A stretch of DNA of 32,172 bases, taken from positions 7,788,700 through 7,820,871 of the forward strand of contig NZ_MKZS01000001.1 in assembly GCF_001942495.1 (NCBI RefSeq), given 5' to 3'. The notes under the pieces are model-generated. The model was not told the DNA's origin and searched no databases. It saw only the letters and a list, made by a program, of their open reading frames with translations. Origin of the DNA: Moorena bouillonii PNG (lineage in GTDB: Bacteria; Cyanobacteriota; Cyanobacteriia; Cyanobacteriales; Coleofasciculaceae). Positions 8,071 to 18,020 of the stretch are shown here, one piece after another (position 1 is the first letter of the stretch; each line of letters begins with the position of its first letter). Position numbers and translations under genes: made by a program.

Positions 8071-9138
8071 TTATTTCAGTTCCGGATGAGTTGTACTCTC
8101 TTGAGAAACACCCATGTGATTAATAGTAGCGAGTAGCTGGTAAAGACGGCTAACATCTCGTCGATTGAAGTAGAAAACCAGACGGGGAAGTTCAGCAGTT
8201 TCATCAGGTAGTTCTTCTGGTAAAACCTGACTTTTCTCAATCCGTCCCTGAACCAAGATATCGCTAAAATCCTGATTTAGCTGTTCAACCTCAGGATCTG
8301 ACAACTCAGATTTGAGGCGAATGACGAATTGATCTCTGACATAGCGGCTAGAGTGATAAACCCGGTAAAACCGATTAATTGTTTCGTAAGCCACATCTAA
8401 GTTATCTGTGATGGTATAGAGACTGGAATCCTCTGGACTGATCAAACCCCGTTGCATGAGGTGCTTTTGAATATAAGCATCCCAATCTTTCCAGTAGGTG
8501 CCACCAGGTTTATCAATCAGTACTAAAGGAGTTGGTTCTAATCGTCCTGTTTGACAAAGGGTTAAAGACTCAAAGGCTTCATCCTGAGTACCAAAGCCAC
8601 CAGGAAATAAGGTAAGCGCATCAGTTTCCTTGATAAAAAATAGCTTGCGAGTGAAAAAATACTTGAACTCAATCAGCTTGGGATCCCCTGCAATAAACGA
8701 ATTTGCGTCGTTTTCAAACGGTAGTTGAATATTCAGACCAAACGAATGCTTAGAGCCAGCACCTTTGTTTCCTGCCTCCATAATGCCAGGACCAGCACCA
8801 GTCATTACCATAAATCCCTGCTGGGTTAAATGATGAGCAAATTCAGCTGCCAGCTGATATTCAGGAGTATTTGGAGCAAGGCGCGATGAACCGAAAATGG
8901 TAACTTTCCGGACATGACGATAGGGATAAAAAACTTGAAATGCCCGCTCCATATCTTCTAGAGAAGCGGTGATTATTTTCCAATCTAGACGGTCAATTTC
9001 TTCCCCAGTTAGTCGCACTAGCACTGCAAGAGACCGTTTGATCAATTTACGATTTTCCAGATTAGGTAGCTGGTCAATCAGTGTTGCTAAATCGTTTGAC
9101 AGTGACTTGAAGCCATCCGCAGAAGGAGATAGAGTCAT
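8071..9138 (-). CDS. LOG family protein (Rossmann-fold nucleotide-binding)
   Basis: A 355-aa protein with an N-terminal helical extension (about 1-75) followed by the LOG/'lysine decarboxylase-like' domain. Hallmarks are IFGSSRL at 81-87, TGAGPGIMEAGNKGA at 113-127 and PGGFGTQDE at 179-187, the last being the PGGxGTxxE signature. Classic LOG proteins are cytokinin-type nucleoside 5'-monophosphate phosphoribohydrolases; they are not lysine decarboxylases despite the old name. This long form with N- and C-terminal extensions is common in cyanobacteria and its substrate is uncertain. It lies 149 bp downstream of kaiC on the same strand, so read-through from the clock operon is possible. Convergent with the DUF928 gene. 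Confidence 0.88.
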   Translation of the reverse strand: MTLSPSADGFKSLSNDLATLIDQLPNLENRKLIKRSLAVLVRLTGEEIDRLDWKIITASLEDMERAFQVFYPYRHVRKVTIFGSSRLAPNTPEYQLAAEFAHHLTQQGFMVMTGAGPGIMEAGNKGAGSKHSFGLNIQLPFENDANSFIAGDPKLIEFKYFFTRKLFFIKETDALTLFPGGFGTQDEAFESLTLCQTGRLEPTPLVLIDKPGGTYWKDWDAYIQKHLMQRGLISPEDSSLYTITDNLDVAYETINRFYRVYHSSRYVRDQFVIRLKSELSDPEVEQLNQDFSDILVQGRIEKSQVLPEELPDETAELPRLVFYFNRRDVSRLYQLLATINHMGVSQESTTHPELK

Positions 9139-9287: not shown

Positions 9288-10847
9288 TTATTCCACAGAC
9301 TTATCACGAACGCCTTTAAAAATCCGAGAGAGTTCGCTTTTTTCATCGACGGGAATACGAGTGGGAGAACCACTGATAATTCGTTCGTAATTGCGGAAGG
9401 AATCCTTAATTTCTGGTCCATCCTTACTAATAGTGTACTCTCTGATCCCTGTATCATGCCAAGAGCCACGCATCTTAAACACATTGATAGCACGGGACAT
9501 TTCACCACGAATTTCCACATACTGTAACATTATAATTGTGTCAGTAATTGTGGAAATATGGGAATCGGTAATGGAGTCAGAGCCCAGAAATTTATCGGTG
9601 GTATTGGTAAAAAAGCCAGTTATTTCTTCTTGCTTGGCATAGCCCGTCACACCAATCACAAACTGCCGAAAGGCATTGTTGCTGACTCCCCGTGCTAAAG
9701 CAGAAAGAGAGTCGATGGCAATCCGAGAGGGCTTAAATTCAGCAATTTCTGTTTTAATCCGTTGTAAGTGGTCTTCTAAGCCCGCTGATTCTGGATAAGA
9801 ACAAAGAATTTTTAATAAACCCTTTTGTTCCATTTCCTCAAAATTAATGCCCCAAGACGATGCATTACGAGATAGCTGAGCCCGAGATTCTTCATAAGCA
9901 AACAGGATGGCGCGATCACCTTGTATGCAAGCATTTTCGATAAACTTGCTCACTAACAAGGTTTTGCCAGTACCTGTGGCACCCGTTGCCAGGATAATGG
10001 AATCCTTGAAGAAACCACCACCACACATCACATCAAGAGTTTTGATTCCGGAAGACACTCTGGCCATGGAAGACCGTTGAGTCAGTCGCATTGCTCCTAA
10101 GGGGAAGATGTTGATCCCTTGATCGGTAATAGTAAAGGGGTATTCTCCTTTCATATGGGTGGTACCCCGCAGCTTGAGAATTTCTATAGTGCGGCGTCGG
10201 CGTTCCCCTTCCAGGACATTACGGACAATGACCACATTATCTGAGACAAACTCTTCCACCCCGAATCTAGCTACTGGTCCATACTCTTCAACTCGCTCTG
10301 TGGTCATAATGGTGGTTACACCAATGTTTTTCAGGCGTGCCACTAGGCGAAAAATTTCTCGCCGTACCACCGAAGCAGCATCGTACTGCTGAAAGATGGC
10401 AGTGATTGAGTCAATGGAAACTCGCTTGGCTTTGTATTTGTGAATGGCGTACTGAATACGCTCGATCAGAGCAGACAGGTCGAAGTTGCCGACAATGTCC
10501 TGTCCTTCTGGATCCGGGGAAGCATCCAGAATAAATAGCTTGCCTTCATTAACTAGTTTATTTAGCTCCCAACCAAAGCTCGATGCATTTTTGGTGATAT
10601 CTGTGGGTGATTCTTCAAATGTAACAAACACACCAGCTTCATCAAAATTGCTAATGCCGTTGTAAAGAAATTGAACGGCTAATAGAGTTTTTCCCGTGCC
10701 AGACGTTCCACTGACCAGGGTGGTTCTACCAGATGGTAAACCGCCATGAGAGATCTCATCGAATCCTTCGATCATTGTCCGTATTTTCTGGACACCGACC
10801 GTTGTTACTGAGTTTTGATATTGTTCATTTTGATTCAATTGATTCAT
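9288..10847 (-). CDS. kaiC: Circadian clock ATPase/kinase KaiC
   Basis: A 519-aa, full-length double-domain KaiC, the autokinase, autophosphatase and slow ATPase that forms the hexameric core of the cyanobacterial clock. CI has Walker A GTSGTGKT at 47-54 and the catalytic glutamate pair E78/E79. CII has Walker A GATGTGKT at 289-296 and the pair E319/E320. The phosphorylation pair is Ser432/Thr433 in DSHISTITDT, equal to S431/T432 of S. elongatus with a one-residue offset. The C-terminal A-loop and tail that KaiA binds (about 488-519) are present. No active residue is missing, so a working KaiC is expected. It is last in kaiABC order, 103 bp after kaiB. Confidence 0.98.
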   Translation of the reverse strand: MNQLNQNEQYQNSVTTVGVQKIRTMIEGFDEISHGGLPSGRTTLVSGTSGTGKTLLAVQFLYNGISNFDEAGVFVTFEESPTDITKNASSFGWELNKLVNEGKLFILDASPDPEGQDIVGNFDLSALIERIQYAIHKYKAKRVSIDSITAIFQQYDAASVVRREIFRLVARLKNIGVTTIMTTERVEEYGPVARFGVEEFVSDNVVIVRNVLEGERRRRTIEILKLRGTTHMKGEYPFTITDQGINIFPLGAMRLTQRSSMARVSSGIKTLDVMCGGGFFKDSIILATGATGTGKTLLVSKFIENACIQGDRAILFAYEESRAQLSRNASSWGINFEEMEQKGLLKILCSYPESAGLEDHLQRIKTEIAEFKPSRIAIDSLSALARGVSNNAFRQFVIGVTGYAKQEEITGFFTNTTDKFLGSDSITDSHISTITDTIIMLQYVEIRGEMSRAINVFKMRGSWHDTGIREYTISKDGPEIKDSFRNYERIISGSPTRIPVDEKSELSRIFKGVRDKSVE

Positions 10848-10950
10848 ATTGGTCGTAAGTAAATGTTCTTAATCAAAAAAAAAAGTTTAGTTTAATGGTG
10901 TTGCTGACTTGCTAAATTTTCACGCTTTAATCTAAAATGGTATAATCTAT

Positions 10951-11265
10951 TTAGAAATCCAAATCTCCTTCACGGAGTTCTTCATAGAGCAAATCTAAGC
11001 CGATCAAGACTTTTTCCCGATCCGAGAGGTCCCCAATGATTTTTCGCACAGGAGGCGGTAAAACTTTTGCCAAGGTTGGTGTTGCCAAAATTTTATCTTC
11101 CTCAGCTAGTTGGGGGCTCTTAAGAACATCAATTACTTTGAGAGCGTAAACCCCTTGGAATTCCTGTTCGAGAATAGTTTTCAGTGTTCTCAAAGCCCTG
11201 ACGGAGTTGGGGGTGTTCCCAGCTACATAAAGCTTGAGAACATAGGTTTTTTTATAGGAACTCAT
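10951..11265 (-). CDS. kaiB: Circadian clock protein KaiB
   Basis: A 104-aa fold-switching protein that binds the KaiC CI ring, sequesters KaiA and drives dephosphorylation. The protein is very close to known KaiB, with [26 protein letters not shown] and [16 protein letters not shown]. Positions known to govern the fold switch in the Thermosynechococcus protein are conserved (Y8, G89, D91), as are the cis-proline region P63 and P70-P72. The acidic tail ([10 protein letters not shown]) is present. It is separated from kaiA by 127 bp and from kaiC by 103 bp; gaps of this size leave room for a separate kaiBC promoter, as in S. elongatus, but I see no clear -35/-10 pair. Confidence 0.97.
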
Positions 11266-11392
11266 AGGCTCGTAAGTTTAGGAGAAGATGGGTTAAAGGT
11301 CAATACAAGGGATCAAGGAACTCAAGGAAACGGTTTTTTAGGAGAGCCTCCCATCAAGCTTACTACTCAATGTTGATCCGATTCTGCTGATC

Positions 11393-12313
11393 TTACAGTT
11401 CTCTGGGGATGGAACGGCGATACATTTCACCTAAGTGAGCAATCACGTCGATTAACGTCAGGCGATAGTCAAGCAGTATATCCTCTCTACGGCCTTCCAG
11501 CTGCAACTGTTTGGAAAATTCATCCATCAGTTCCATATGAATTTCTACAATCTTAGATATAGAAATATCCGCAAAAAACACTTGTTCTACAAAATGATCA
11601 ATGTCTTGGTTTAGGGTATCTCCCGGTGCAAAGTACTGTAGAACAATTTGACGATACTCTGATCTTAAGTGTTCTAACAGCTCATCCCTGTCGTTGAGAG
11701 ATAGATTACGAAAAAAAAGCCGAGGATTTCTCTTGTAGTACACACCAAGGTATCCAAGTCTTTCCCTGAGCTTTTCAGCTAACCGATGCTGCTGCTTACT
11801 CAAGAAACTGTAATTAGCTACTGCGAGGGTAGGATAAACCGGGTCAGATGACCTGGGTAAGTTACAGGCGGGAGCCAGGGACAAAAACCCGGTGATCGCC
11901 TTTTGGATGAAATCGCCAATTTCAGGTAATTGGTGAATACTAAGTTCGACTTCTGCCGGATGGAACAGATAAGCCCTGGATCTGGTGGTGAATTTATGGG
12001 TCGTCTGGTTAGAGCCGAGCTGTTGATTTCTGTCAACCCTAGGGGGAATTTCTGGGGAGTCCGACCGCAAAAATACTGCAGGTAAGGTGGTTCCTTGCAG
12101 GTACAAGTACTGGATCACCTGGGGAAGTGTGTCGGTATCCTGCAATACCAAACAATCAAGATCCTGTTTATGTTGCTCAACCACCTCGAAAAACTCAGAT
12201 TCTGAGCTAGTAGAGTGTACAATATATTGCTCGCTACCCAAAACCTGAGAAAGGGATTGAGCTAGGGCATCAGAACTGATCAGCGTACATATGGTTAGTT
12301 GGGAAAGCAACAC
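11393..12313 (-). CDS. kaiA: Circadian clock protein KaiA (full length)
   Basis: A 306-aa KaiA, the activator of KaiC autophosphorylation. The N-terminal about 135 residues form the pseudo-receiver domain (starting LTICTLISSDALAQSL), which lacks a phospho-acceptor aspartate as in all KaiA. After a linker, residues about 170-300 form the four-helix dimerisation and KaiC-binding domain, with NPRLFFRNLS, HLRSEYRQIVLQYF and the C-terminal GEMYRRSIPREL. Anabaena/Nostoc KaiA lacks the N-terminal domain; this one keeps it. It is first in the leftward operon and divergent from the large histidine kinase. Confidence 0.97.
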   Translation of the reverse strand: MLLSQLTICTLISSDALAQSLSQVLGSEQYIVHSTSSESEFFEVVEQHKQDLDCLVLQDTDTLPQVIQYLYLQGTTLPAVFLRSDSPEIPPRVDRNQQLGSNQTTHKFTTRSRAYLFHPAEVELSIHQLPEIGDFIQKAITGFLSLAPACNLPRSSDPVYPTLAVANYSFLSKQQHRLAEKLRERLGYLGVYYKRNPRLFFRNLSLNDRDELLEHLRSEYRQIVLQYFAPGDTLNQDIDHFVEQVFFADISISKIVEIHMELMDEFSKQLQLEGRREDILLDYRLTLIDVIAHLGEMYRRSIPREL

Positions 12314-12332
12314 AACAGGTCCCGAATATCAA

Positions 12333-12370
12333 ACTGGTTACTCTTACTATATAAGAGTGCTTAAACCAGT
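12333..12370. promoter_or_regulatory. Nested inverted repeats upstream of kaiA
   Basis: ACTGGTT at 12333-12339 pairs with AACCAGT at 12364-12370, and inside it CTCTTA at 12341-12346 pairs with TAAGAG at 12352-12357. The block begins 20 bp before the kaiA start codon, in the 304-bp gap shared with the divergent kinase gene. It could be an operator or a 5'-leader hairpin. Confidence 0.45.
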
Positions 12371-12617
12371 AAGATTTTAACATTTTTTTTAACAATGGGC
12401 TTAATATAAATTAAATTAAATTGAAACAGTCTGATAATTGAAATTAATTTTGATTTCGCGCCTCACTATATCCCCAGTGTTGAGCAGTATATTGAAAAGT
12501 ACTTGCTCTTCAAGCATTAGGGGATCGTCTAGTCCTGTTGGGCTTGAGTTAATTCCTTTGTTGCTACTTTAGGAGGATGTGTTGCTACTGTAGCGCTCAA
12601 CCGCTGTTGAAGCTAGA

Positions 12618-15600
12618 TTGGTTATGCCCATGCCTACTCCCAGTATCCAAAAATTTGCCCAGCTAGTTCCTGTTTGTCAAAGGACCTCTGAGTTGGCTAC
12701 TCTGCTAGATATTTTTAATGGTTCAAGGCATGACTCGATTGTGGTAGTCAGCGAACACCAATATCCTGTGGGAGTAGTGAAGCTAAGGCAGATCATGCCT
12801 CACCTGCTCTCCTTAGCTAAGGTATGTAGCTCAGGAACAACAATGACAACTGGTTTTCTTCACAAACCACTATCTTGGGTAGAGCCAAACATCATTGAAC
12901 CCATAACCATCCTACCAGGTAAGCTGAGTCTAAACCAATTCTGGTACTACCTACAAGACAATGGAAGTAGGGAGGGGGGGTTAGGGGAGTTGGGCAGCAA
13001 CTGGGATAGAGAATTTAACCAATTCCCGATCCGAGATCAGGAACAGTGGGCATTAGTAGATGGGGACCAGAAATTTATCGGACTCCTTAACAGTTGGCTG
13101 CTGTTAAAATCATTAGCATCCACATTCACCCAACAACGTTCTGAATCGATAGTAAAGCGTACTCAACCCAAGGGACTGAACCCTAATCCCCTCAGGACTC
13201 ACCACCCAGACTATCGATTAACAGCCAAGAGTTCTTGGGTCAATTCCCTAGGATTATCATCTCGAATCAACTCAGGACTGAAAACTCAGGAGGAAGCCGT
13301 CACTAAAACTCCCCACTTCAAGGGCATTAAGCCATTAGTCCAACTGTTAGAACAACTGCCATTACCCCTAAGCATACAAACCTCGACGGGAAAAGTTTTA
13401 GCCGAGAATCTGACCTGGCGTGAGCAGATTGAGAAATCCTCCGAAGGGAATCTGGCACATGCTAGCACCACAGGAAATAAAAATACTACCTCTGCCCAGA
13501 AAAACCCTGGAGCTAGGGAAAAGATACCCTACCGTTCTTCTTACAATCGTCTGTTATCTAATGATGTACCGAGGGCAGTCAGTAAGGAAGGTTTGAACCA
13601 ATCGATGGAACAGTCAATGGACTCGATAGACTTCAACTCGGGTCAGCCTGATACCCAGAAGTCCCCAACCTTCCATCACAAATCTGCTCCGACCTCTCCA
13701 GGACAATGGCCATTATCTGTGGGGAATGTTTGTGACCAGGGAGACAAAACCTCTCAACAAGCTGCTGTTGGGCAATACTGTGCTCTTGATACTCCCTATC
13801 AAGCAGCAACAACTATTCATGAGCGCGTGCTACTGTTTTCACAACCAGTGAAGAAAACCGGGGCAAACCATACCCGGTGCCGGGAAACCGCTGCACCAAC
13901 TGACTTAACTCTTTCAAACAGCCAGGAGCAGGTATTCTCGTTTGTTAAAATTCCTCTGTCACCTTCTGTCGCTGCCCTTTGGGAGGGAGGACTAGAAACT
14001 GGCAGTGAGCCTAAGGTCGCTTTTGACTATTCGAGATCTCCAATCTCTAGGTCTGAGTCACCCAACTCTCAAGTATACCTAGTCTTGGCTCAAGATACCA
14101 CAGAGCAACGACTTTTTGCCCAAGAACTGGCAGCAAAAAATGCTGATTTAGTGCAACTCAACCGACTCAAAGATGAGTTTTTAGCTTGTATTAGCCATGA
14201 ACTGAAAACACCGATAACTGCGATTTTGGGTTTGTCAACTTTGTTGAAAGACCAAGCCCTAGGGGAACTCAATCAACGTCAATCCCGTTATGCGCAGTTA
14301 ATTTATCAGAGTGGCCGTAAGCTAATGACCGTGGTCAACGATATTCTCGATTTGACCCGTATGGAGACTGGTCAACTGAAACTTACCCTCGAACCGGTGC
14401 CAATTCGGACTGTATGCGATCGCGCTTATGACCAAGCTCGCTCTGAGATAGACTCAAAACACTCGGAGGACAACAATCGAGATTATCCGACAAAATTCAC
14501 CCTAGAGATTGAAGCAAGTTTAGAGATGCTGATTGCTGACGAGTTGCGTTTACGGCAAATGTTGGCCCATCTGTTTTCTAATGCCCTTAAGTTTACCGAT
14601 GGCAGTGGTGAAATTGGTCTGAAGGTCAATTGGTGGCAAGGTTGGATTGCTTTCACGGTCTGGGACACTGGCATTGGTATTCCTGCCGATAAACAGCACT
14701 TGATCTTTCAGAAATTTCAACAGCTGGAAAAGCCTCTGACTCGTAGCTTTGAGGGGACTGGTCTGGGATTAGTTTTAACACAACATCTAGCTCACTTGCA
14801 TGGTGGAGATGTCTCGTTTATTTCCAAGGCAGGGGTCGGTAGTCAGTTTACCCTACTCTTCCCCCCCTGTCCTCCCCACGCTTCATCTGATCAATTGGAC
14901 AATTGGGATGAGCAACTATCAGAGATTGCCCCTACGGCAACGTCTCACCCCCCATCTTCGACGCCCAACCGTTTAGTGTTAATTGTGGAAGCTGTACCTC
15001 TTTACCTGGAAGGATTGACGGAACAGCTCAAGAGTTTAGGCTATTGGGTAGTGGTTGCCCGCTCTGGTACAGAAGCCATCGAAAAAGCCCGCCGTTTACA
15101 ACCCTATGCTATCTTACTCAATCCCCTACTACCAAAACTTTCTGGTTGGGATGTCCTAACACTGCTAAAGTCGGATGCCCAAACTAATCACATCCCGGTT
15201 TTGGTCACAGCCACCCAGGCTGAAAAACAGCAGGCAACCCACAACAAAGCTGATGGTTTCTTAAGTTTGCCGGTACAAGAGGAAGCATTACGAGAAAACC
15301 TTTCTCGCCTGGCTAAAGACGAGAGTAATACCAGTAGTGTGCTAACGATTCTCTATCTCAATCCTGGTGATGGGCGAAAAGGCTATTATGTAGATTCCTA
15401 CCAGAACTCTGACTCGTCTGCACTGACTGATGAGTTAACTTCACTATTGAGTCTAGAACACTTAGACCTGAATTATCGGGTACTCGAAGCCGATGATTTC
15501 GATCAAGCTGAGTTATTGAGTCGGGTTTGGAATCCAGATGTGATTGTATTAAATGGTGCTCGACTGATCAACCCTTTAATATACTTGAATCAGTTTTCAT

Positions 15601-16292
15601 CATATCCTTCCTTGAGTACTTTACCACTAGTAACCCTGGATCACCAAACTACAGAAGCCGCTAATCAAGTAACTGGTCTTTCAGTCTATCCCTGTTTAGC
15701 ACCAAATAATCAACAAAAGATGGCTGCCATACTGCAAGTCATTCAAGTGGCCGCTGGAATCAGTTGCAAGCCTACCATTTTAGTGATGGACACGGGGGAG
15801 CAGAGAACAAAGTTTAGGGGTAATCCGTTACAGGTTAACAGGTTGAAAGTTGAATCGTCTCACTTATCCTACGGATTTTCTCTAGGAGGAAAATCATCAA
15901 CATCTTGGCTACAGGCACTGATTCAATACTTACAAACTGCTGGTTATTCCAGCTTACTCGCCTGTTCTTGGGCAGAAGTATACCGTCAAATTCAGGGAAA
16001 AAGTGTGGACTTGCTGCTGATTCGATTAACAGATCTCACTAATCCTTTAGAACATTCCCAAGGATTGATAACTCTTGCTCAATTACCAGAGCGACCACCA
16101 ATTCTGGTTTTGGATCATCGATTAGACGCTAAGCAGCATGATCCAGTAATCAAGAGTAGTAACAGTAGTAACTCCAATTCTCAGTTGGAGTTGCTGGTTA
16201 AGAAAATTGCTACTCAGATTGTACACTGGCATTCTCAGTCAATGACCCAGTTATTAAAGCAGATTAAGCAGGTCATGAACCAAACCCTTTAA
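12618..16292 (+). CDS. Hybrid sensor histidine kinase with CBS pair and three degenerate receivers
   Basis: A 1224-aa soluble kinase. Residues about 10-170 look like two CBS motifs, each ending in a V.....G(V/L)(V/L) strand pair. A PAS-like start at 235-275 and a PAS-like end at 484-500 are split by about 200 residues of low-complexity, S/T/Q/N-rich linker. A coiled coil leads into HisKA with phospho-acceptor His527 in SHELKTP. The HATPase domain has N655, DTGIG at 683-687 and GTGLGL at 713-718, so the kinase core looks active. Three receiver-like domains follow (about 785-900, 907-1050, 1055-1190). In the first, the acidic pair is E-A, the acceptor Asp is N835 and the Lys is Leu. The second has Asn and the third Ile at the acceptor position. 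These are pseudo-receivers. Start is uncertain: TTG 12618, ATG 12624 or ATG 12630. Divergent from kaiA. Confidence 0.9.
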   Translation: MVMPMPTPSIQKFAQLVPVCQRTSELATLLDIFNGSRHDSIVVVSEHQYPVGVVKLRQIMPHLLSLAKVCSSGTTMTTGFLHKPLSWVEPNIIEPITILPGKLSLNQFWYYLQDNGSREGGLGELGSNWDREFNQFPIRDQEQWALVDGDQKFIGLLNSWLLLKSLASTFTQQRSESIVKRTQPKGLNPNPLRTHHPDYRLTAKSSWVNSLGLSSRINSGLKTQEEAVTKTPHFKGIKPLVQLLEQLPLPLSIQTSTGKVLAENLTWREQIEKSSEGNLAHASTTGNKNTTSAQKNPGAREKIPYRSSYNRLLSNDVPRAVSKEGLNQSMEQSMDSIDFNSGQPDTQKSPTFHHKSAPTSPGQWPLSVGNVCDQGDKTSQQAAVGQYCALDTPYQAATTIHERVLLFSQPVKKTGANHTRCRETAAPTDLTLSNSQEQVFSFVKIPLSPSVAALWEGGLETGSEPKVAFDYSRSPISRSESPNSQVYLVLAQDTTEQRLFAQELAAKNADLVQLNRLKDEFLACISHELKTPITAILGLSTLLKDQALGELNQRQSRYAQLIYQSGRKLMTVVNDILDLTRMETGQLKLTLEPVPIRTVCDRAYDQARSEIDSKHSEDNNRDYPTKFTLEIEASLEMLIADELRLRQMLAHLFSNALKFTDGSGEIGLKVNWWQGWIAFTVWDTGIGIPADKQHLIFQKFQQLEKPLTRSFEGTGLGLVLTQHLAHLHGGDVSFISKAGVGSQFTLLFPPCPPHASSDQLDNWDEQLSEIAPTATSHPPSSTPNRLVLIVEAVPLYLEGLTEQLKSLGYWVVVARSGTEAIEKARRLQPYAILLNPLLPKLSGWDVLTLLKSDAQTNHIPVLVTATQAEKQQATHNKADGFLSLPVQEEALRENLSRLAKDESNTSSVLTILYLNPGDGRKGYYVDSYQNSDSSALTDELTSLLSLEHLDLNYRVLEADDFDQAELLSRVWNPDVIVLNGARLINPLIYLNQFSSYPSLSTLPLVTLDHQTTEAANQVTGLSVYPCLAPNNQQKMAAILQVIQVAAGISCKPTILVMDTGEQRTKFRGNPLQVNRLKVESSHLSYGFSLGGKSSTSWLQALIQYLQTAGYSSLLACSWAEVYRQIQGKSVDLLLIRLTDLTNPLEHSQGLITLAQLPERPPILVLDHRLDAKQHDPVIKSSNSSNSNSQLELLVKKIATQIVHWHSQSMTQLLKQIKQVMNQTL
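15827..15854 (+). repeat. 7-base tandem repeat inside the kinase gene
   Basis: Four degenerate units of period 7 (GTTACAG, GTTAACA, GGTTGAA, AGTTGAA) read in frame within the linker before the last receiver-like domain. Nearly the same run lies at 3308-3342. Confidence 0.55.
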
Positions 16293-16973: not shown

Positions 16974-18020
16974 ATGAAACGTCTTGTGGTATGTTGTGAT
17001 GGCACATGGCAAGAGTTATCAAGTACTTACCCAAGCAATGTGGTTAAGATTTCTCAGGCAGTTAAACCATTGGGTAGTGACGGAGTTTCACAAATCGTAT
17101 TCTACGATGAGGGAATTGGCACAGAAGACTCTCTCAAGAGCAAGCTTTTCGGTGGGGCTTTTGGCAAAGGGATTGATACCAATATCCAGGATGCTTATCG
17201 CTTTCTTTGCCTGAACTACGCCCCTGGTGACGAAATCTACCTGTTCGGTTTCAGTCGTGGGGCTTACACCGTGCGCAGTCTCGCTGGAATGATTTATAAC
17301 TCAGGCTTGCTATCTCGGATTGAGATCGATAAAGCTCCGGAAGCCTACGAAATGTACCGCTCTCGGGATATCAAGCCTAATCACCAACAAATGGTAGCAT
17401 TCCGCGAAAAATACGGAGAAAGTGTCCCCATTACCTTGCTTGGCTGCTGGGACACCGTTGGTTCCCTTGGTATCCCTAATTTATCTCCCTTTTTGCGGTT
17501 TGACAAAAGGGTTAACAAGAGGTATAGATTCCACGATACCTCTTTGAGTCCGATTATTGAGCATGGGTTGCACGCTGTATCCATTGATGAGCAGCGCAAA
17601 GTCTTTGACGTCACGCCAATGGACAAAAGCCACCTTTCCCAAACCCAGGTTGTTCGTGAAGTATGGTTTCCAGGGGTTCACGGCTCCGTCGGTGGTGGCT
17701 CCCAGGAGCAGAGCGGCTTGTCCGACGGCGCACTGCAGTGGATGATCGAGTCAATCGGCAAGATCGGTCTTGGTCTTGAGTTTGACCCAAGCGCAATTCC
17801 CACTGGTATCAACCTTGACTATGAAATTGATTTCAACAATGATCTGGGTCTATTCAAGTTCACAGGGCGCAAGCTACGGGAGATTTCTGATAACTTTGAT
17901 GACCTTCATGAGAGTGTAATAGAACGCTGGATGAGGCGGCCCGATTATCGACCGAGCAATCTGGCTCAAAAGCACGGCTCCAGACTAAATCAACTATTAG
18001 AACAGAAGCAACAGAAGTAG
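16974..18020 (+). CDS. DUF2235 alpha/beta hydrolase (Tle1-like)
   Basis: A 348-aa protein of the DUF2235 family, alpha/beta-hydrolases that include the type VI secretion phospholipase Tle1 and many stand-alone proteins. The N-terminal KRLVVCCDGTWQ is the family opening. The nucleophile elbow is GFSRGA with Ser94. Asp160 in GCWDTVGSLG and His236 in FPGVHGSVGGG complete a likely triad. There is no signal peptide or membrane segment, and no secretion genes are nearby, so a housekeeping lipid or ester hydrolase is as likely as an effector. The ribosome-binding site AAGGAGG at 16961-16967, 6 bp before the ATG, is the best in the window and fixes the start. Convergent with the glycosyltransferase gene. 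Confidence 0.9.
   Translation: MKRLVVCCDGTWQELSSTYPSNVVKISQAVKPLGSDGVSQIVFYDEGIGTEDSLKSKLFGGAFGKGIDTNIQDAYRFLCLNYAPGDEIYLFGFSRGAYTVRSLAGMIYNSGLLSRIEIDKAPEAYEMYRSRDIKPNHQQMVAFREKYGESVPITLLGCWDTVGSLGIPNLSPFLRFDKRVNKRYRFHDTSLSPIIEHGLHAVSIDEQRKVFDVTPMDKSHLSQTQVVREVWFPGVHGSVGGGSQEQSGLSDGALQWMIESIGKIGLGLEFDPSAIPTGINLDYEIDFNNDLGLFKFTGRKLREISDNFDDLHESVIERWMRRPDYRPSNLAQKHGSRLNQLLEQKQQK

Follow-up and report, generated by a model that had tools for sequence, protein, structure and literature searches.

What is the function of a large histidine kinase that shares its upstream region with a circadian clock operon? In the stretch analyzed here, 32,172 nucleotides of Moorena bouillonii PNG (contig NZ_MKZS01000001.1, positions 7,788,700 to 7,820,871; the whole stretch is called the window, and its nearest named records are Moorena), kaiABC runs leftward and a hybrid histidine kinase of 1224 residues runs rightward, with a 304-bp gap between them. 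A preliminary description had given this layout, and it was confirmed by the open reading frames (ORFs) and the Pfam matches, with the coordinates collected in Table 1. We propose that the kinase was anciently fixed at the clock locus, where it would couple the state of the cell to the Kai oscillator or carry its output, a reading that we consider moderately probable. The kinase can be described as a hybrid kinase of the clock locus that has a CBS pair and as many as three pseudo-receivers, and its putative clock role is supported by synteny.

Association of the kinase with kaiA

A survey of the neighborhood of kaiA, a check set beforehand in the preliminary description, revealed that the pairing is widespread and occurs in many families of the class. 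Among 37 related genomes (window included), 33 had the kinase gene, whole or as a clear fragment, in divergent orientation to kaiA or to what is left of it, and some of these copies were only pieces at contig ends. Three relatives (G020, G026 and G032; G labels denote sampled genomes and L labels individual loci or regions) had no kinase at the locus, and G024 could not be judged. G020 also yielded no KaiA match and no stand-alone KaiB, and we count this in favor of the proposed clock association.

The class sample consisted of 388 genomes, requested at 90% completeness. The profile of the second receiver domain of the kinase (receiver 2) matched 242 genomes, and the KaiA C-terminal domain matched 339. 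Kinase matches with E up to 1e-8 were taken as strong (221 genomes), and the 21 weaker ones were set aside. The preliminary description had named homologues unrelated to clock gene presence as an outcome that would speak against it; instead, KaiA was present in 220 of the 221 strong-match genomes (Fisher p 1e-18, not corrected for phylogeny).

Coordinates were compared for the 150 matches listed per search, and 95 genomes appeared in both lists. Among these listed matches, 81 of the 95 genomes had both genes on the same contig, and all 81 pairs were divergent with the matched stretches less than 4 kb apart; the kinase and kaiA were on different contigs in the other 14. Fetched regions contained the divergent pair in 18 of 20 more kinase-bearing genomes, in 5 of 20 kaiA-bearing genomes whose kinase fell outside the matches listed, and in 13 of 13 genomes picked from families with weaker matches. 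In total, the divergent pair was recovered in 117 distinct genomes of the class sample. We also inspected the best 80 of 130 named loci found by one peptide pattern: kaiA adjoins the kinase in 69, a contig end limits the view in six more, and five are without kaiA. The recurrence in relatives and in the class sample shows that the pairing is neither a chance arrangement nor confined to this strain, the latter being an outcome that the preliminary description had named as refuting; the link between the kinase and the clock locus is well supported.

N-terminal region and catalytic core

Pfam assigned HisKA, HATPase_c and a single Response_reg domain to the kinase. The preliminary description had overlooked an N-terminal CBS pair and, likewise, a PAS-like stretch at about residues 236-275. 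Pfam CBS matched the N-termini of 29 out of 30 orthologues (E up to 0.1); the N-terminal piece of the window kinase alone matched at E 0.0029 and 18.3 bits, below the 24-bit Pfam cut-off. A profile of the orthologue N-termini matched solved CBS proteins, AMPK gamma among them (best match in Table 1). The predicted N-terminal structure (mean predicted local distance difference test score, pLDDT, 69) matched CBS pairs in Foldseek, including OpuCA, CBSX2 and DarB, and structures solved with AMP, ATP or c-di-AMP were among these matches. The stretch at about 236-275 had no Pfam match; PAS-like is our own label, which we infer from its conserved motif.

For the catalytic core, 125 kinase sequences were aligned, made up of a 112-sequence alignment (window included) and 13 added sequences. 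The 112 are the window and 111 of the 138 ORFs that match receiver 2, those dropped being shorter than 550 residues or identical; four of the retained ORFs are open-ended. In the window, His527 and the ATP-site boxes are intact, as previously described: His527 lies within SHELKTP, and N655, D683 and GTGLGL are present. His527 is conserved in 125 of the 125 sequences, N655 in 114 and D683 in 112. In eleven sequences (L116, L194, L196, L197, L205, L206, L266-L269 and L271), His527 was kept but the N-box Asn and the G1 Asp were both missing from the alignment, a loss that was judged from alignment columns among diverged sequences and that may be an alignment slip in L116. L194 and L196 belong to one genus, and the KaiA C-terminal domain at L194 is near-identical to 5jwr; from the organism that we take to be the source of 5jwr, we call this genus Thermosynechococcus-like. 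Mean pairwise identity over 1500 sampled pairs was 0.74 in the DHp and 0.64 in the ATP-binding (CA) domain, followed by 0.56 in receiver 1, 0.45 in receiver 2, 0.34 in receiver 3 and 0.30 in the CBS pair.

Receiver domains

A structure model of residues 484-1224 (mean pLDDT 71) contained the kinase core and three (beta-alpha)5 receiver folds. All three were said in the preliminary description to lack the phospho-acceptor Asp, with Asn in the first two and Ile in the third. This is right for the window, where the first two carry N835 and N979, except that the third residue is Arg1136 by alignment, one position after the Ile.

At the acceptor position of receiver 1, the 125 sequences have Asn in 104, Ser in seven and Asp in four, leaving 121 without Asp. 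The Asp-bearing sequences are L074, L206, L266 and L270, the last three in poorly aligned stretches. Receiver 1 of the window has lost the strand-5 Lys in addition to carrying N835. This Lys is retained in only seven sequences (L259-L265), all from family f45, and Ser or Asn replaces the Asp there. Its retention in one family fits the decay of receiver 1 from a once normal receiver, and the f45 domain is possibly an intermediate of that decay.

Homologues that keep the Asp were the other unfavorable outcome named beforehand, and this was the case for receiver 2, although not for receiver 1: the acceptor position of receiver 2 is Asp in 98 of the 125 sequences, Asn in 12 and Glu in eight. The 98 Asp-bearing orthologues raise the alternative of an ordinary phosphorelay hybrid kinase, in which the receiver 2 Asp would be a true acceptor in most species and the receivers would not be dead. 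However, the window has Asn at this position, and the receiver 2 consensus is devoid of the strand-1 acid pair and of the Lys, strand 5 being mostly V-F/Y-P-C-L (P1025 in 113/125, C1026 in 106/125). Because the consensus is without the acid pair and the Lys, phosphorylation of receiver 2 in the Asp-bearing orthologues is doubtful; taken together with the near-complete loss of Asp from receiver 1, we regard an ordinary phosphorelay as very unlikely. Receiver 2 has a strongly conserved motif of its own, about RVLEADDLxQAxLLxRVWxPDV...FPCL, and a Protein Data Bank (PDB) profile search with it gave weak response-regulator matches, the best at E 0.035. Receiver 3 is variable and present in 93 of the 112 orthologues; its acceptor position is Asp in 5/125 and a gap in 30/125.

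Comparison with known clock and hybrid kinases

CikA resembles the kaiA-adjacent kinase in being clock-associated and in joining a HisKA-HATPase kinase to a C-terminal receiver-like domain. CikA carries a GAF domain, and none was found in the kaiA-adjacent kinase by Pfam at E up to 0.1. The genome of the window has a separate CikA candidate, L215, of 793 residues with GAF, kinase and receiver. The C-terminal part of L215 has its best PDB match in 2j48 (E 4.8e-17), which we take to be the CikA pseudo-receiver, and L215 finds a 50% identical match in G047, a genome that is presumably Synechococcus elongatus-like (see below). Whereas CikA has a GAF domain (as given in the available passages of PMC12691664), the kaiA-adjacent kinase has the CBS pair, the PAS-like stretch and three receivers; with this difference in domain make-up and L215 as a separate candidate, identity with CikA was ruled out. 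The best PDB sequence matches of receiver 1 were DivK and others, 2j48 was not among the best 60 of 138, and receiver 1 is identical to the L215 receiver at 24 of 104 positions.

SasA is likewise a clock-linked HisKA kinase. It carries a KaiB-like domain at its N-terminus and lacks receivers. The kaiA-adjacent kinase gave no KaiB match by Pfam, and a separate SasA-like gene encoding 405 residues is present at L168, so identity with SasA was ruled out as well. Domain make-up and the separate candidate genes set the kinase apart from both CikA and SasA.

With the model of residues 484-1224 as query, Foldseek listed ShkA of Caulobacter first (6qrj, E 3e-21), with template modeling (TM) scores of only 0.27/0.42. 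In ShkA, DHp and CA are followed by a degenerate receiver (REC1), and the kaiA-adjacent kinase likewise has a degenerate receiver after CA; the comparison showed no shared N-terminal module. ShkA ends in a phosphorylated REC2, whereas the window receivers are without the acceptor set and the terminal one has R1136; the pseudo-receiver of ShkA controls its kinase, and ligand binding relieves auto-inhibition (from the portion of PMC7010744 available). The KaiA pseudo-receiver, encoded next door, is also a receiver fold without phosphorylation chemistry, but it gave only low-scoring local alignments with the kinase receivers (scores 31-39). In the VIA-align list of the kinase model (50 rows shown), kinase cores and receiver 1 dominate and receivers 2 and 3 are barely sampled, which makes the absence of CikA and KaiA from that list uninformative.

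KaiA, CikA and the kinase in Nostocaceae

The window kaiA encodes both the KaiA_N pseudo-receiver and the C-terminal domain by Pfam. In the Nostocaceae sample, KaiA was found in 31 of 31 genomes, a KaiA_N match in 0 of 31 and the kinase in 31 of 31. The kinase was divergent from kaiA in each of the 16 Nostocaceae regions read, one of them with a single ORF between the two genes (L176). Of 50 Nostocaceae genomes searched with L215, whose pseudo-receiver spans about residues 669-793, 42 matched CikA strongly (E no higher than 1.3e-137), and the pseudo-receiver was covered in none of the 42, as judged by the ends of the matches and not by the domain itself. Most of these matches end by residue 661; that of G424 ends at 673 and that of G440, the furthest, at 691, in long ORFs of 869 and 834 residues, respectively. 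Loci L253-L258 are among the places where the matches stop before or just inside the pseudo-receiver. In the remaining eight genomes, only weaker CikA matches were obtained (E from 4e-77 to 4e-65), and several of them, in longer kinases, extend through a receiver.

In S. elongatus, the pseudo-receivers of KaiA and CikA both take clock input (as stated in the accessible part of PMC13421787). Both seem to be absent in Nostocaceae, where the kinase still carries pseudo-receivers, a pattern that is a correlation within one clade. An excerpt of PMC8113500 argues that clocks with single-domain KaiA must either be without S. elongatus-type quinone binding or use a different one, and GAF kinases of Nostoc punctiforme were examined for possible substitutes in the role of CikA (PMC12691664, in part). 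This kinase may bear on the route by which Nostocales clocks receive dark or redox signals.

A bolder possibility is that the kinase represents a third clock-kinase class beside SasA and CikA, missed because the S. elongatus-like genus lacks it. In Nostocales, with KaiA and seemingly CikA devoid of a pseudo-receiver, the pseudo-receivers of the kinase would have taken over docking or redox/energy input, and the CBS pair would sense adenylates; in the Thermosynechococcus-like lineage, for example, the protein would be a pseudokinase with a decayed ATP site that serves mainly for binding. We consider this extended proposal unlikely. The kinase is not clearly commoner with single-domain KaiA (34/47 genomes) than with double-domain KaiA (186/292), CikA matches also end early outside Nostocaceae (G035, G043, G068, G080 and G121), and G121 has such an early-ending match yet no kinase match. 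G121 and the eight genomes with weaker CikA matches lower the probability of the extended proposal.

Proposed role and exceptions to the pairing

In the clock-coupling role that we favor, the CBS pair would bind an adenine nucleotide (AMP/ADP/ATP or c-di-AMP) and, together with the PAS-like stretch, set autokinase or phosphatase activity. Since no usable acceptor exists within the window kinase itself, its target would be a separate response regulator, for which RpaA is our likeliest guess. The pseudo-receivers may serve for regulation or docking, like those of ShkA (where a ligand relieves auto-inhibition) or CikA (binding of KaiB); through them, the oscillator would gate the kinase, or the kinase would reset the oscillator. 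Docking on Kai proteins, which the preliminary description had proposed, received no special support from the sequence comparison. With its fixed position beside kaiA, its possible energy sensor and its pseudo-receivers, the kinase is a good candidate for an input or output component still missing from the clock.

Several observations weigh against this proposal. The kinase and KaiA of G044 are on one contig about 1.2 Mb apart, and G144, G156 and G222 have a strong kinase match elsewhere, not adjoining kaiA. In at least five of the 14 two-contig cases (G038, G296, G304, G356 and G402), kaiA is separated from the contig end on the kinase side by more than 4 kb, which places the kinase elsewhere; in G045, G202, G278 and G303, among others, the split may be due to a contig end. 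The named loci without kaiA beside the kinase are L123, L124, L147, L163 and L167. G400 has the kinase and a KaiB-sized ORF; in the KaiA searches it gave nothing for the C-terminal domain and no more than a weak match for KaiA_N. In G021, the kinase is intact, kaiA is truncated beside a transposase-like ORF and no KaiB reached the cut-off. No strong kinase match was obtained in 119 of the 339 kaiA-bearing genomes, so the kinase is not a universal part of the clock. The eleven orthologues that seem to have lost ATP-site residues run counter to a pure kinase role there, and by sequence the kinase receivers are not especially close to the pseudo-receivers of either CikA or KaiA.

The truncated kaiA of G021 (L069, 1575-2834 and 2967-3398) ends after the pseudo-receiver part, next to an ORF that we named OrfB/TnpB-like transposase; neither kaiB nor kaiC was found on this contig.

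These exceptions also bear on whether the neighborhood is frozen without shared function, the kinase being a general stress kinase that stayed beside kaiA. Its persistence where kaiA is lost or broken (G400 and G021) and its location away from kaiA in G044, G144, G156, G222 and others would agree with such a history. However, 117 genomes of many families keep the pair, whereas the outer neighbors of the window are seldom shared, and the co-occurrence in 220 of 221 genomes, with the phylogenetic reservation given above, also argues against it; among the explanations weighed here, this is the one we rate lowest.

G047 and G065, which belong to one genus, had no receiver 2 match, and in the fetched region of G047 no kinase of this family is beside kaiA. 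The KaiA of G047 is closest to 5n8y and 1r8j, and from what we take to be their organism we call G047 S. elongatus-like. A 123-residue ORF upstream of kaiA in G047 (L193, 4677-5045) matches the kinase profile at E 6e-19 and is perhaps a lone receiver. A survey of clock factors builds on S. elongatus homologues (available passages of PMC5520375). Since such a survey starts from S. elongatus factors and the kinase is absent from the S. elongatus-like genus, a widespread neighbor of kaiA may have been missed in this way. We found no description of a kinase beside kaiA in the open-licence literature searched, by title, abstract start or passages, among the matches listed. We take all2883 to be the Anabaena orthologue of the kinase. 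One table in the accessible part of a CRP-regulon paper lists all2883 (PMC2633013).

Intergenic spacer and features of the locus

The fixed divergent orientation could also reflect transcriptional pairing only, through a shared divergent control region and co-regulation, or through the kinase acting on a transcription factor of the spacer, with no Kai contact. Across three Moorena-group genomes, the kaiA-kinase spacer is 95-99% identical, compared to 84-91% (aligned part) for the gap between the kinase and Tle1. However, the gap between kaiB and kaiA is as conserved (98-100%), so the kaiA-kinase spacer is not special, and the gene persists even where ATP-site residues seem to have been lost, which suggests more than phosphotransfer. 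We consider transcriptional pairing somewhat unlikely. A promoter scan of the 304 bp gave two promoter-like matches, compared to 1.0 expected.

Table 1. Coordinates of the clock genes, the spacer and the kinase domains within the window
Feature	Position	Strand	Evidence
kaiC	9288..10847	-	Pfam KaiC (ATPase), E 3.1e-125
kaiB	10951..11265	-	Pfam KaiB, E 6.9e-30
kaiA, double-domain (pseudo-receiver and C-terminal domain)	11393..12313	-	Pfam KaiA_N and KaiA
kaiA-kinase divergent spacer, 304 bp	12314..12617	.	95-99% identity in three other Moorena-group genomes
kaiA-adjacent hybrid histidine kinase, 1224 aa	12618..16292	+	ORF and Pfam domains
CBS pair (Bateman module), aa ~8-176	12639..13145	+	Pfam CBS in orthologues; profile match 9e6q, E 2e-17; Foldseek
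PAS-like stretch (putative), aa 236-275	13323..13442	+	Conserved LLEQLPLPL...NxxWR motif; label inferred
DHp helix pair, phospho-acceptor His527 (codon 14196-14198)	14115..14387	+	HisKA, E 2.4e-17
ATP-binding (CA) domain, window motifs intact	14445..14873	+	HATPase_c, E 7.2e-25
Pseudo-receiver 1, N835 (codon 15120-15122)	14970..15317	+	Response_reg, E 2.2e-14
Pseudo-receiver 2, N979 (codon 15552-15554)	15339..15761	+	Fold in predicted model
Pseudo-receiver 3, R1136 (codon 16023-16025)	15771..16208	+	Fold in predicted model

In the Moorena group, a LOG-family gene (window 8071-9138) follows kaiC and a gene for a Tle1-like hydrolase (16974-18020) follows the kinase; these outer neighbors are seldom present at other loci. 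Among the KaiB matches, a 315-residue protein from the same genome as the window (L170, 832-1776) has its KaiB domain behind a long N-terminal extension, and KaiB-matching ORFs of 267-295 residues occur in other genomes.

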